DNA of 30,402 nucleotides from a virus. Where the stretch lies: the IMG/VR virus record IMGVR_UViG_3300032093_009701, positions 1 through 30,402 of that record; one strand, given 5' to 3'. Positions 409 through 30,072 of this stretch are shown here, one piece after another. The first letter of the stretch is position 1. Every line of letters starts with the position of its first letter. The translations under genes were made by a program, and so were the position numbers. The notes under the pieces were generated by a model. The model did no database searches and was not told the origin of the DNA. It was given only the letters and a program-made list of their open reading frames with translations.

Positions 409-410
409 TT

Positions 411-599
411 GCTCCAATAGGAGCAACAATCTGTCCAACACTGGGGTTCGACTCCCCACATCTCCATTCTCGGGGATGAACTGGTATTCGACTGGGCAGA
501 GGGTTCCGAGAATAAATCTCAACAACATCGTATCTTTCCGCAGAACTGCTGTTGCCGTTTGAGCAATAGCACTTTGAGCGAACTGGGGAGTAATCCCCT
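411..599 (+). ncRNA. ssrA: Circularly permuted (two-piece) tmRNA
   Basis: tmRNA frees stalled ribosomes and tags the nascent protein for degradation. The two tRNA-like halves are in permuted order, 3' half first. T arm TGGGG/CCCCA (442-458) and 3' acceptor CATCTCC with discriminator A (459-466) are followed after 5 nt by 5' acceptor GGGGATG (472-478); the two strands pair over all 7 bp. The D-loop analogue at 479-493 contains the conserved TTCGAC. P2 forms between GGGCAG (494-499) and CTGTCC (431-436). A tag reading frame follows at 521-562, then a 5-bp GTAA-loop hairpin at 585-598. A hairpin GCTCC-AATA-GGAGC (411-424) precedes it. Permuted two-piece tmRNAs are known in marine picocyanobacteria. 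The 21 nt between P2 and the tag leaves no room for a standard PK1. Ends are approximate. Confidence 0.88.
521..562 (+). other. tmRNA proteolysis tag reading frame
   Basis: Codons 521-559 encode NNIVSFRRTAVAV, followed by TGA at 560-562. The start (NNIVSF) and the small hydrophobic end match the cyanobacterial SsrA tag family (for example ANNIVSF...). In register, the preceding codon is CTC rather than the usual Ala resume codon, so either the first tag residue is not Ala or the resume point has moved. A hydrophobic AVAV end fits recognition by ClpXP-type proteases. Confidence 0.8.
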
Positions 600-1358: not shown

Positions 1359-1379
1359 ACAAATATTGGTAGATACGCT

Positions 1380-1387
1380 TATAAATA
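1380..1387 (+). promoter_or_regulatory. T4-type late promoter core
   Basis: TATAAATA, the exact T4 late consensus, lies 20 bp upstream of the HNH start codon. In T4-like phages this is read by the gp55 sigma factor with gp33 and the sliding clamp. Confidence 0.5.
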
Positions 1388-1407
1388 ATACTAGCAAGTT
1401 TACCATT

Positions 1408-1875
1408 ATGAGAAAAAGAACAGATTTAGATAATAACAAAGAATATATTATAAAATCTTTGTTGAGTGGAGAAAAATCTCCAACAGATATTTGTGTTGAG
1501 TTTAATTGTAAATATGATACTCTTCGTGTTCGAACTAAGGAGTGGATTCCAAATTATAAACCAGACTACACTTCAAAGATAAGAACTTGTGGGGGTCAAA
1601 ATAAACATCTTTCATTAGAGAAATATTATCTTCATAAAGATAAGAAATGTAAGAGAGGTATTTTACATAGATTACTTGTTGAAGAGAGAGGTGATTTTTG
1701 TTCTGAATGTGGGGTTTCTTCTACTTGGAATAATAAACCATTAAGATTACAAGTTGACCATATTAATGGAGAATGTTATGATAATAGACCCTGCAATTTG
1801 AGATTACTTTGTCCAAATTGTCATTCACAAACAGAAACATTCTCATCAAAACAATCATTAGCGAGAGTGGTGTAA
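1408..1875 (+). CDS. HNH homing-type endonuclease
   Basis: 155 aa from the ATG at 1408; an upstream TTG at 1366 would precede the late promoter core and is less likely. The C-terminal half has an HNH/zinc architecture: CxxC (CSECG), then DHINGxxxDNRxxNLR, then CPNCHSQT, with the DHI histidine as expected catalytic residue. The N-terminal part resembles a small DNA-recognition helical region (KEYIIKSLLSGEKSPTDIC). Free-standing HNH genes are common next to phage tRNA arrays and promote their own spread or exclusion of rivals. The last five codons and the stop (TAA 1873-1875) lie inside the acceptor/D-arm start of tRNA-Leu(TAG), which begins at 1861. This could mark the insertion boundary. No intron in a tRNA was found. 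Confidence 0.85.
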   Translation: MRKRTDLDNNKEYIIKSLLSGEKSPTDICVEFNCKYDTLRVRTKEWIPNYKPDYTSKIRTCGGQNKHLSLEKYYLHKDKKCKRGILHRLLVEERGDFCSECGVSSTWNNKPLRLQVDHINGECYDNRPCNLRLLCPNCHSQTETFSSKQSLARVV

Positions 1876-4031: not shown

Positions 4032-4262
4032 ATGAAAATGTATCCAGAACTTTCAGATCTTCAAAGATTTACAGTCAAAGAGTTTCAAGCAGATTTTGAT
4101 AATTTAATAGAAAAAGTAGAAAATGGCGAATCATTCGTTATTACTGATGGGGAAATAAGCGCAGTAATAGTTCCATACAACGAAACCATAAAGTTTGCAG
4201 TAGAATCTGGCGTGAGCGATGAACTCATACGAATACACACGGACCACGAAGAAGGTTCTTGA
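4032..4262 (+). CDS. Phd/YefM-like antitoxin, no partner toxin
   Basis: 76 aa from ATG 4032 (a second Met lies 2 codons in). The pattern FTVKEFQADFDNLIEKVENGESFVITDG-x-SAVIVPY is that of the Phd/YefM prevent-host-death antitoxin fold: an N-terminal dimer/DNA-binding domain of about 50 residues, then a short charged tail that normally wraps the toxin. No Doc, RelE or similar toxin is next to it; tRNA genes flank both sides. It could neutralise a host toxin released on infection, or act as a repressor. The stop TGA overlaps the -35 box of the next promoter. Confidence 0.7.
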   Translation: MKMYPELSDLQRFTVKEFQADFDNLIEKVENGESFVITDGEISAVIVPYNETIKFAVESGVSDELIRIHTDHEEGS

Positions 4263-4300: not shown

Positions 4301-4388
4301 GCGAGTGAGACTTGGTAGTCAGAGGAGTCTTATAAACTCTTTCCGCCAGATTAGCGGCTTTGACCTGGTTCGAATCCAGGCACTCGTA
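4301..4388 (+). tRNA. Class II tRNA with TAT anticodon, identity unclear
   Basis: Acceptor GCGAGTG/CACTCGT, anticodon stem GGAGT/ACTCT with loop CTTATAA (anticodon TAT at 4331-4333), T stem CCTGG/CCAGG, discriminator A. It has a long variable arm (hairpin CCGC/GCGG), which in bacteria belongs to Leu, Ser or Tyr, and a short D arm (GAC/GTC with 6-nt loop). TAT would read the Ile codon AUA, already served by the tRNA at 754. A decayed Leu(TAA) or Tyr tRNA is possible. Confidence 0.75.
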
Positions 4389-4390
4389 TT

Positions 4391-4463
4391 GCTCCTTTAG
4401 CAATCTGGTGAATGCAGCGAACTCATAATTCGCCTGAGGCGTGTTCGATCCACGCAAGGAGCA
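4391..4463 (+). tRNA. tRNA-Met-like (CAT), copy 2
   Basis: Base-for-base identical to the tRNA at 830-902, including two bases before it and the CTTG after it. The lack of any difference points to a recent duplication or gene conversion. Confidence 0.93.
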
Positions 4464-4464
4464 C

Positions 4465-5018: not shown

Positions 5019-5045
5019 GTGGTGGAGTCAAAATCTGACCCTTTC

Positions 5046-5148
5046 TGTCCTCGTCGGATTGGACATAAAATATGCCGACTGGTGTGGATGGGGAAACCCC
5101 GCCTGGTTTCCAATTTCCAGATAAAGAATTGGTGGCGAGCCTGTTATT
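5046..5148 (+). other. Structured untranslated region ahead of a terminator
   Basis: No ORF is visible. Several helices can form: TGTCC (5046-5050) / GGACA (5061-5065), competing with GTCGG (5053-5057) / CCGAC (5075-5079); GGGG-aaa-CCCC (5090-5100); and CCAATT (5110-5115) / AATTGG (5127-5132). With the terminator immediately after, this could be an attenuator or riboswitch-like element, or only the 3' UTR of the membrane-protein mRNA. Confidence 0.4.
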
Positions 5149-28894: not shown

Positions 28895-29593
28895 ATGCTT
28901 ATAGATCTTCATAACTTTTTTAAGTTTTATGACGAAAAAAATCCAAAGCACGTTGCAGCAATTGATCAACTCGAAAAGGATTTGCTTTTAAAGTCTCAGG
29001 ATTTGCTTGAAGATAGTGCTAATTGGGTGAGAATCTATAGATCAAAAGAAGACAAACCACAATCAACAATTTTACCCGTTCCCTTCTATCCACAAACAGA
29101 CAATTATAAAGATGCAAATAGAACTTGCAATTCTTCTGCCTGTGCTATGTGCCTTGAGTATTTCAAACCAGGTACTTTAAAAGGAGCAAAAGGCGACGAC
29201 GCCTATCTACAAAAAGTTTTTTCAATCGGTGACACTACTGATCATTTGGTTCAGACCAAGGTTCTTGCGTCATACGGTATTAAATCCAGTTTCTCCTACA
29301 GTCTTACTTTTGATGATCTTGATAGAGAGCTTGCCGCTGATAGACCTGTTGTTATTGGTATTCTTCATCGCGGTCCTTTATCTAACCCCACGGGAGGACA
29401 CATGGTAGTTGTGATTGGCAAAACTCCTAGTGGAGATTATGTCGTAAATGATCCTTATGGATCACTCAACGATGGTTATACTGGTGCAGTAACTAATGGT
29501 AAAGGTGCTGTTTATAAGAGAAGTGACCTTTCTCGTAGGTGGTGCCCTAAAGGTAATGATGGATGGGGAAGACTATTTGATGTAAAAAAGTAG
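28895..29593 (+). CDS. C39-like cysteine peptidase, endolysin N-terminal module
   Basis: 232 aa. Residues 62-200 are peptidase C39-like: VPFYPQTDN, catalytic Cys78 in RTCNSSAC, His169 in GGHMVVVIG and Asp186 in VNDPYG. It would cut a peptide, possibly the peptidoglycan stem. No signal peptide. The N-terminal 55 residues are helical and uncharacterised. The reading frame ends at TAG 29591 directly after AAAAAAG, and the -1 frame continues into a GH24 lysozyme, so a share of product is probably a 392-aa fusion. Confidence 0.82.
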   Translation: MLIDLHNFFKFYDEKNPKHVAAIDQLEKDLLLKSQDLLEDSANWVRIYRSKEDKPQSTILPVPFYPQTDNYKDANRTCNSSACAMCLEYFKPGTLKGAKGDDAYLQKVFSIGDTTDHLVQTKVLASYGIKSSFSYSLTFDDLDRELAADRPVVIGILHRGPLSNPTGGHMVVVIGKTPSGDYVVNDPYGSLNDGYTGAVTNGKGAVYKRSDLSRRWCPKGNDGWGRLFDVKK

Positions 29594-29628
29594 AAACGCC
29601 AACTAATAATACTGTTCCGTTAGTTGGC
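29584..29628 (+). promoter_or_regulatory. Programmed -1 ribosomal frameshift signal
   Basis: The slippery heptamer A AAA AAG (29584-29590) is in the 0 frame, immediately before the TAG stop. A 7-nt spacer follows, then a perfect 9-bp stem GCCAACTAA (29598-29606) / TTAGTTGGC (29620-29628) with a 13-nt loop. All three elements have the geometry of bacterial -1 frameshift sites. There is no T tract, so the hairpin is not a terminator. Confidence 0.75.
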
Positions 29629-30072
29629 ATTGAATTGATAAAAGAGTTTGAGGGTTGTCATTTAAATGCTTATCCAGACCCACTAACAGGAGGGTTGCCA
29701 ATTACTATTGGTTGGGGAAGCACTAAAGATTTTAATGGGCAACCATTTAAAATAGGAAAAAGAATCACTCAAGAGTATGCAGATAGACTTTTAGTTTTTG
29801 ATGTTGAAAATAGATTTCTTCCTTCTATACAAAAAATACCTTACTGGAGTGAGATGAATGACAACCAAAGAGGGGCTTTACTTTCTTTTGCATATAATCT
29901 TGGTGCAGGTTTTTATGGTGGAACTAACTTCAATACTATTACAAAAGTCTTGAAGAATAAGGAATGGGATAAAGTACCTGATGCCTTGTATCTTTATAGA
30001 AATCCTGGTTCTAATGTGGAGGCAGGATTGGCAAGAAGAAGAAAAGCAGAAGGGGACTTATGGAAGTCTTAA
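29590..30072 (+). CDS. GH24 phage lysozyme, -1 frame extension of the C39-like gene
   Basis: 160 residues in the -1 frame. A Thr/Pro/Asn-rich linker (VETPTNNTVPLVG) is followed by GIELIKEFEG, the exact start of GH24 lysozymes. The catalytic Glu of EFEG, Asp of YPDP and the TIGWGST block are present, as are NQRGALLSFAYNLG and the C-terminal GLARRRKAEGDLW. It cuts the glycan chains of peptidoglycan. No ATG lies near the domain start; an independent start would need TTG 29635, which falls inside the conserved first helix and has no Shine-Dalgarno. A frameshift fusion is the simplest reading; a sequencing error or recent mutation is the alternative. Confidence 0.87.
   Translation, partial: VETPTNNTVPLVGIELIKEFEGCHLNAYPDPLTGGLPITIGWGSTKDFNGQPFKIGKRITQEYADRLLVFDVENRFLPSIQKIPYWSEMNDNQRGALLSFAYNLGAGFYGGTNFNTITKVLKNKEWDKVPDALYLYRNPGSNVEAGLARRRKAEGDLWKS

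Follow-up and report, generated by a model that had tools for sequence, protein, structure and literature searches.

tmRNA is a bacterial RNA that releases stalled ribosomes and marks their incomplete proteins with a tag. The virus record IMGVR_UViG_3300032093_009701 raises the question whether a short element in its tRNA array encodes such an RNA, and what use a virus might make of it. The whole record of 30,402 bases was analysed and is called the window in the following. Its BLAST matches to Synechococcus phages, together with genes for an OprB/SLH porin, a PBP-like binding protein, NAD synthase and a phage lysozyme, point to a cyanophage. The first 4.5 kb are a tRNA array, and the element lies directly after tRNA-Gln (337-408) and before tRNA-Arg (604-678). 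An initial annotation had read it as a phage-encoded circularly permuted tmRNA, which is now strongly supported by Rfam matches, pairing and covariation.

Structure of the permuted tmRNA gene

Positions 409-598 hold a circularly permuted (two-piece) tmRNA gene, in which the T arm and the 3′ acceptor strand come before the 5′ acceptor strand and the D-loop. Its parts are the following:

409-426, plus strand: 5′ hairpin of the acceptor half (TTGCTCC/GGAGCAA, loop AATA), folded, with compensated differences among 20 copies
430-436, plus strand: 3′ strand of P2, TCTGTCC, pairing with 494-500 in 20 of 20 copies (6 distinct helices)
442-458, plus strand: T arm, TGGGG and CCCCA around a TTCGACT loop (100/100 cells paired, 5 distinct stems)
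459-466, plus strand: 3′ acceptor strand CATCTCC (459-465) and discriminator A466, CCA not encoded (140/140 cells paired)
467-471, plus strand: intervening sequence TTCTC, presumably cut out from between the mature 3′ and 5′ ends (from the sequence)
472-478, plus strand: 5′ acceptor strand GGGGATG, with which the mature coding piece presumably begins (Rfam match and 20-copy comparison)
479-492, plus strand: D-loop region AACTGGTATTCGAC (alignment to the Rfam models)
494-500, plus strand: 5′ strand of P2, GGGCAGA (pairing and covariation)
508-520, plus strand: predicted GAGA-AUAAA-UCUC mini-hairpin at the pseudoknot 1 site, with AUAA (512-515) in its loop
518-562, plus strand: tag frame, consisting of the CTC resume codon, LNNIVSFRRTAVAV and TGA (14 codons in 7 of 7 distinct versions)
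539-580, plus strand: helix 5, present in the folds of nearly all copies, its loop located at the stop codon
585-598, plus strand: terminal hairpin GGGGAGTAATCCCC followed by TTTCTT, a terminator-like end of the coding piece (from the fold)

An unconstrained RNA fold of 409-600 contains the 5′ hairpin, P2, the T arm, the acceptor stem, the GAGA/UCUC hairpin, helix 5 and the terminal hairpin, and the minimum free energy of the element has a z of -4.3 against 300 shuffles. The 7-bp pairing of CATCTCC (459-465) with GGGGATG (472-478), which includes G3.U70, and the TTCGAC of the D-loop (487-492) are as the initial annotation had described them. It had also recognized a P2 helix across the permutation, but its version (494-499 with 431-436) was one base pair short of the actual 7-bp helix of 494-500 with 430-436. 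Likewise, the proposed tag frame and its TGA (560-562) stand, but the frame starts one codon earlier, with CTC (518-520) before NNIVSFRRTAVAV. We regard this CTC as the resume codon because the AUAA tetramer (512-515) occupies positions -6 to -3 relative to it. An extension of P2 (503-507 with 420-424), seen by eye, was dropped because compensatory changes preserve the 5′ hairpin, which uses 420-426.

Conservation and covariation

Pattern scans of IMG/VR brought up 32 further contigs with the same type of tmRNA, three of them incomplete; two other pattern matches, L147 and L174, were chance matches. No isolate phage was found by BLAST with the L177 copy. For the count of pairings, 20 distinct complete phage sequences were split into segments, and in these the acceptor, T-stem and P2 pairs were intact in 380/380 cells, with many compensatory changes. 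The acceptor stem (140/140) occurs as 6 distinct helices, P2 (again 140/140) includes double changes, and both sides have changed in 12 of the 19 pairs. Among 13 aligned sequences, 14 pairs show double changes as compared to 5.4 in shuffles (none of 500 reached this number), and in slid controls pairing drops to 41-61%. The alanine-identity pair G3.U70 is invariant (20/20), and in most of the 20 copies, 3 nt lie between the end of the 5′ hairpin and P2′, with hairpin sequences that differ. The acceptor, P2 and tag positions are thus conserved in related phages, a property whose absence, along with that of a covariance-model match, the initial annotation had named as grounds for rejecting its reading. 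In contrast, the mini-hairpin at 508-520 is invariant across copies, such that covariation speaks neither for nor against it.

Since several scans fixed hairpin or tag letters, the invariance of GAGAAYAAATCTC is partly a matter of ascertainment. Matches of an acceptor-plus-D-loop scan without the GAGAAYAAATCTC letters, which are close relatives, still carry GAGAAYAAATCTC, including L065 with altered codons. The intervening sequence measures 5-6 nt across the lineage, except for 64 nt in L161, and it is short in hosts too. In the lineage member L156 (8302-8516), the T loop reads GGCAGTA instead of TTCGANT, and the T stem is wholly re-paired (ATCGG/CCGAT) while the tag is unaltered.

Several further features were noted in the window and in related contigs. 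An ORF in the array (window 1366-1875) looks HNH-like by eye (CSECGV...DHINGE...LLCPNCHSQ) and has no Pfam match, and another, between tRNA genes (4032-4262), resembles Phd/YefM antitoxins in a weak match below the cut-off, with no evident toxin partner. The array contains two copies of a tRNA-Ile(tat)/tRNA-Met pair (754-903 and 4301-4464). A wcaG RNA element (RF01761, 75.1 bits; 5045-5146), found also in L101 and L154, lies upstream of a run of sugar/glycan-enzyme-like genes, and abiF RNA matches (RF03085) are located close to the tRNA arrays of lineage members (L178 748-784; L101 409-445). At 28895-30072 of the window, a C39-like peptidase gene adjoins the phage lysozyme gene, and this pair comes after genes for the porin, AdoHcy hydrolase, the binding protein and a redoxin.

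Detection by covariance models and ARAGORN

In cmscan, the element matched the Rfam model cyano_tmRNA over its full length (52.2 bits, E=2.5e-13; E=3.6e-15 in a repeat run), the hit that the initial annotation had proposed to look for, and it also matched tmRNA_permuted at full length (39.2 bits, E=1.8e-6). Both scores are below the Rfam gathering cut-offs of 70 and 47, respectively, which are detection thresholds and not biological features. The cut-off of 47 for tmRNA_permuted (RF04321) is passed by two other lineage members, L101 (60.9) and L161 (52.3). A chance resemblance beside tRNA-Gln is ruled out by the Rfam E-values, the fold z and the covariation as compared to shuffles, and an alphaproteobacterial origin is not favoured, as the tag core and the best-scoring model are cyanobacterial.

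A covariance model built for the lineage gave at least 110 bits to complete members, 92 to L163 and at most 68 to other phage forms. Across 201 host-family genomes, it gave the best host genes at most 59 bits, with one exception at 69, which is discussed below. ARAGORN did not call the tmRNA of the window. When run on 11 lineage loci, it missed 8 and gave wrong tags to the other 3, whereas it returned the expected tag for L163, S-CRM01, S-CAM1, S-SSM7 and two host loci. With most of the lineage missed or mis-tagged, phage tmRNAs are undercounted in ARAGORN-based surveys.

Apparent loss of pseudoknots

One departure from the hosts is the shortening of the gene, which measures about 190 nt in the phages and about 285 in hosts. 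From the D-loop TCGAC to the resume codon, the window lineage has 24-25 nt as compared to 52-53 in hosts, and from P2 to CUC it has 17 as compared to about 44. Spacer length and fold leave no evident room for pseudoknot 1, which therefore appears to be lost or reduced to the predicted 4-bp hairpin with AUAA in its loop. Furthermore, the only element between the stop codon and the terminal hairpin is the strand of helix 5, and hence the downstream pseudoknot region is gone.

S-CRM01 and L163 also lack the downstream pseudoknot part, but have a spacer of 41-43 nt and a GCA resume codon. L163, a phage copy that contains pseudoknot 1 and has the tag ANNIVSFSRTAVAV, is a plausible intermediate. In E. 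coli, tagging survives the replacement of pseudoknot 1 by a hairpin or a single strand (PMC4236655), and in vitro, no fewer than the last three pseudoknots are dispensable (PMC3985003).

The resume codon and the end of the tag

The resume codon is CUC (Leu) in the window lineage, whereas hosts use GCU or GCG (Ala in 64 of 64 cases). Upstream of it, the lineage has an invariant A at -4 and either U or C at -5. In E. coli tmRNA, A86 is essential and U85C is harmless (PMC2481249), and AUAG/AUAA tetramers are preferred as resume signal (PMC4236655). With -4 fixed as A and both U and C occurring at -5, the lineage fits the E. coli rule.

The second difference concerns the end of the tag. Host tags end in VAA in 64 of 64 cases, a count that leaves out one spurious frame (end HGG, distance 133), whereas the tags of the window lineage end in AVAV or SVAV in all members but L161 (AVAA). 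The tag occurs in 7 distinct versions, each of 14 codons; synonymous changes and exchange of TGA and TAG are among their differences. Over the nine codons that were not used in searching, pN/pS is about 0.58, a value that is suggestive only. Other cyanophages have longer tmRNA forms, whose tag ends include VAA, ATA, VTA, LV, TV and VAV. Among those with long spacers (L003, L007, L024, L046, L164, L213 and others), the ends VAV, ATV, ALV, TLV, QTV and VTA were seen. Changed tag ends may thus be widespread in phages.

For ClpXP, the terminal Ala-Ala are the most important residues of the tag (PMC7652416), and tags ending in AAV are weaker than LVA tags in Synechocystis (PMC3446811). By analogy with these data, which concern other tags and other species, the AVAV tag is probably a weakened degradation tag.

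A second compact tmRNA in an apparent prophage

The 69-bit exception in the search of host-family genomes is a compact permuted tmRNA in the picocyanobacterial genome G037 (G037:C1:926930-927148, minus strand, within L225, G037:C1:917000-936900), which is present beside a normal copy of 311 bits. It has the tag ANNIKRTERTLAIAA, a 25-nt spacer, an Ala resume codon and the tag end IAA. Genes for a T7-like RNA polymerase, a tyrosine integrase and an HNH protein lie nearby, so that the region is an apparent integrated T7-like prophage. Given its Ala codon and different tag, phages seem, from these sequences, to have acquired compact forms on more than one occasion.

Proposed function and alternative explanations

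From the anatomy, we infer processing, charging, tagging and weaker proteolysis in the following way. The permuted precursor would be transcribed inside the tRNA array, and the host's tRNA-processing enzymes would split it in two: an acceptor piece, starting at about 409 or 427 and ending at 466, and a coding piece, running from 472 to about 598. The 7-bp acceptor stem and the 7-bp P2 would hold the two together. Host AlaRS could charge it via G3.U70, and SmpB would bring it to ribosomes stalled on broken mRNAs, which are expected to be plentiful during infection. This SmpB is presumably the host's, since no SmpB gene was found in 17 phage records, many of them fragments. The ribosome would then resume at CUC, guided by AUAA at -6 to -3, add (Ala)-LNNIVSFRRTAVAV and stop. 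With pseudoknot 1 shrunk to no more than a short hairpin and the downstream one gone, the RNA would retain just what tagging needs. Because AVAV replaces the host PVAA, ribosomes would be recycled while the tagged protein would be destroyed less, or differently. The phage might thereby run or redirect trans-translation, as the initial annotation had suggested.

That the element is a functional, apparently pseudoknot-free two-piece phage tmRNA of cyanobacterial descent that recycles ribosomes, with AVAV as a likely weaker protease signal, has in our judgement, based on sequence comparison, a probability of roughly three in four. Counting against it are the Rfam scores below the cut-offs, the tag pN/pS of no less than about 0.58, the position of the resume codon within the predicted mini-hairpin, the abnormal T loop of L156 and the AVAA end of L161, as well as the origin of the degradation data from other tags and species. 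The more far-reaching proposal that the cyanophage RNA separates ribosome rescue from proteolysis, competing with the host tmRNA and sparing AVAV-tagged products, is tentative and perhaps rather unlikely. The tag changes might instead be drift under genome compaction in an ordinary tmRNA copy, which would supplement host rescue in the way that phage tRNAs do. Its place in the tRNA array would suit such a copy, as would the varied tag ends of other cyanophages, some of them still VAA, and the IAA of the prophage copy, but most of the lineage, as well as L163 with its pseudoknot 1, retains AVAV despite silent codon changes; we give this explanation somewhat less than an even chance. These probabilities are not exclusive of one another, as the ordinary copy shares the core claim and disputes the tag step alone.

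Size reduction in the lineage would also agree with a decoy or inhibitor, i.e., a compact RNA that would bind to SmpB and to stalled ribosomes, with the blocking of the host tmRNA as its main effect and a tag that matters little. There is a precedent in the tag-less RNA of phage DS6A, and an RNA resembling it acts as a tmRNA inhibitor in E. coli (PMC4131195; PMC11915505). However, the lineage has kept a tag frame of constant length together with its stop codon and resume signal, none of which a decoy would need, and we consider this explanation improbable. As for a decaying pseudogene of a captured host gene, the low Rfam score, the shortening and the failure of ARAGORN to find the gene would fit, but full pairing is maintained by compensatory changes in three helices across 20 copies, and the tag is open and of constant length. 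The covariation largely refutes decay, which we hold to be very improbable.

Relation to known tmRNAs and implications

Two-piece tmRNA in phages is already known, and the initial annotation's question whether phage copies had been described is answered by a 2022 survey. In this survey, 402 of 18,146 phages had a tmRNA, and ARAGORN gave 53 unique two-piece structures, 50 of them marine or aquatic; in its tmRNA tree, a cyanobacterial branch is shared with phages (PMC9004378). A 2025 tmRNA database holds 79 phage sequences (PMC11915505). What is unusual is the apparently pseudoknot-free form, the Leu resume codon and the changed tag end.

With the picocyanobacterial two-piece tmRNA (RF01851; Prochlorococcus, Synechococcus), the RNA of the window shares the permuted order, the 5′ hairpin, the short intervening sequence, G3.U70, the NNIV tag core and the terminal hairpin. 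The host RNAs differ in having pseudoknot 1 in a spacer of 52-53 nt, a further pseudoknot region, an Ala resume codon and VAA, and they score about 285-329 bits as compared to 52 for the window. The two-piece tmRNAs of aquatic phages (PMC9004378; S-CRM01, S-CAM1, S-SSM7, Sf-FS3) are likewise phage-borne, permuted and often near tRNAs, but their spacer is longer, their resume codon is one for Ala, and ARAGORN detects them and gives the expected tags. In S-CRM01 (L001), S-CAM1 (L211), S-SSM7 (L213) and Sf-FS3 (L214), the permuted tmRNA genes are unannotated in the stretches viewed.

Reduced tmRNAs occur elsewhere. Plastid tmRNAs resemble the one in the window in having few or no pseudoknots and a tRNA-like domain that is kept, but are organellar (PMC3985003). 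The jakobid mitochondrial tmRNA, in one or two pieces, also lacks pseudoknots, but has no tag coding sequence (PMC3985003). The RNA of mycobacteriophage DS6A is a phage-borne reduced tmRNA (PMC4131195) with little beyond the tRNA-like domain and no tag, whereas the window keeps a tag of 14 codons. We found no description in the open-access literature of a tag-bearing, apparently pseudoknot-free permuted phage tmRNA, nor of the difference in tag ends between hosts and phages.

If functional, the phage RNA would be a natural test of a minimal trans-translation RNA, in two pieces and apparently with no pseudoknot, a form that agrees with the mutagenesis showing pseudoknots to be dispensable. The difference between host and phage tag ends bears on the question why phages carry tmRNA at all, and it is directly testable. 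With a changed tag end, viruses may free stalled ribosomes while the tagged products are degraded less readily.
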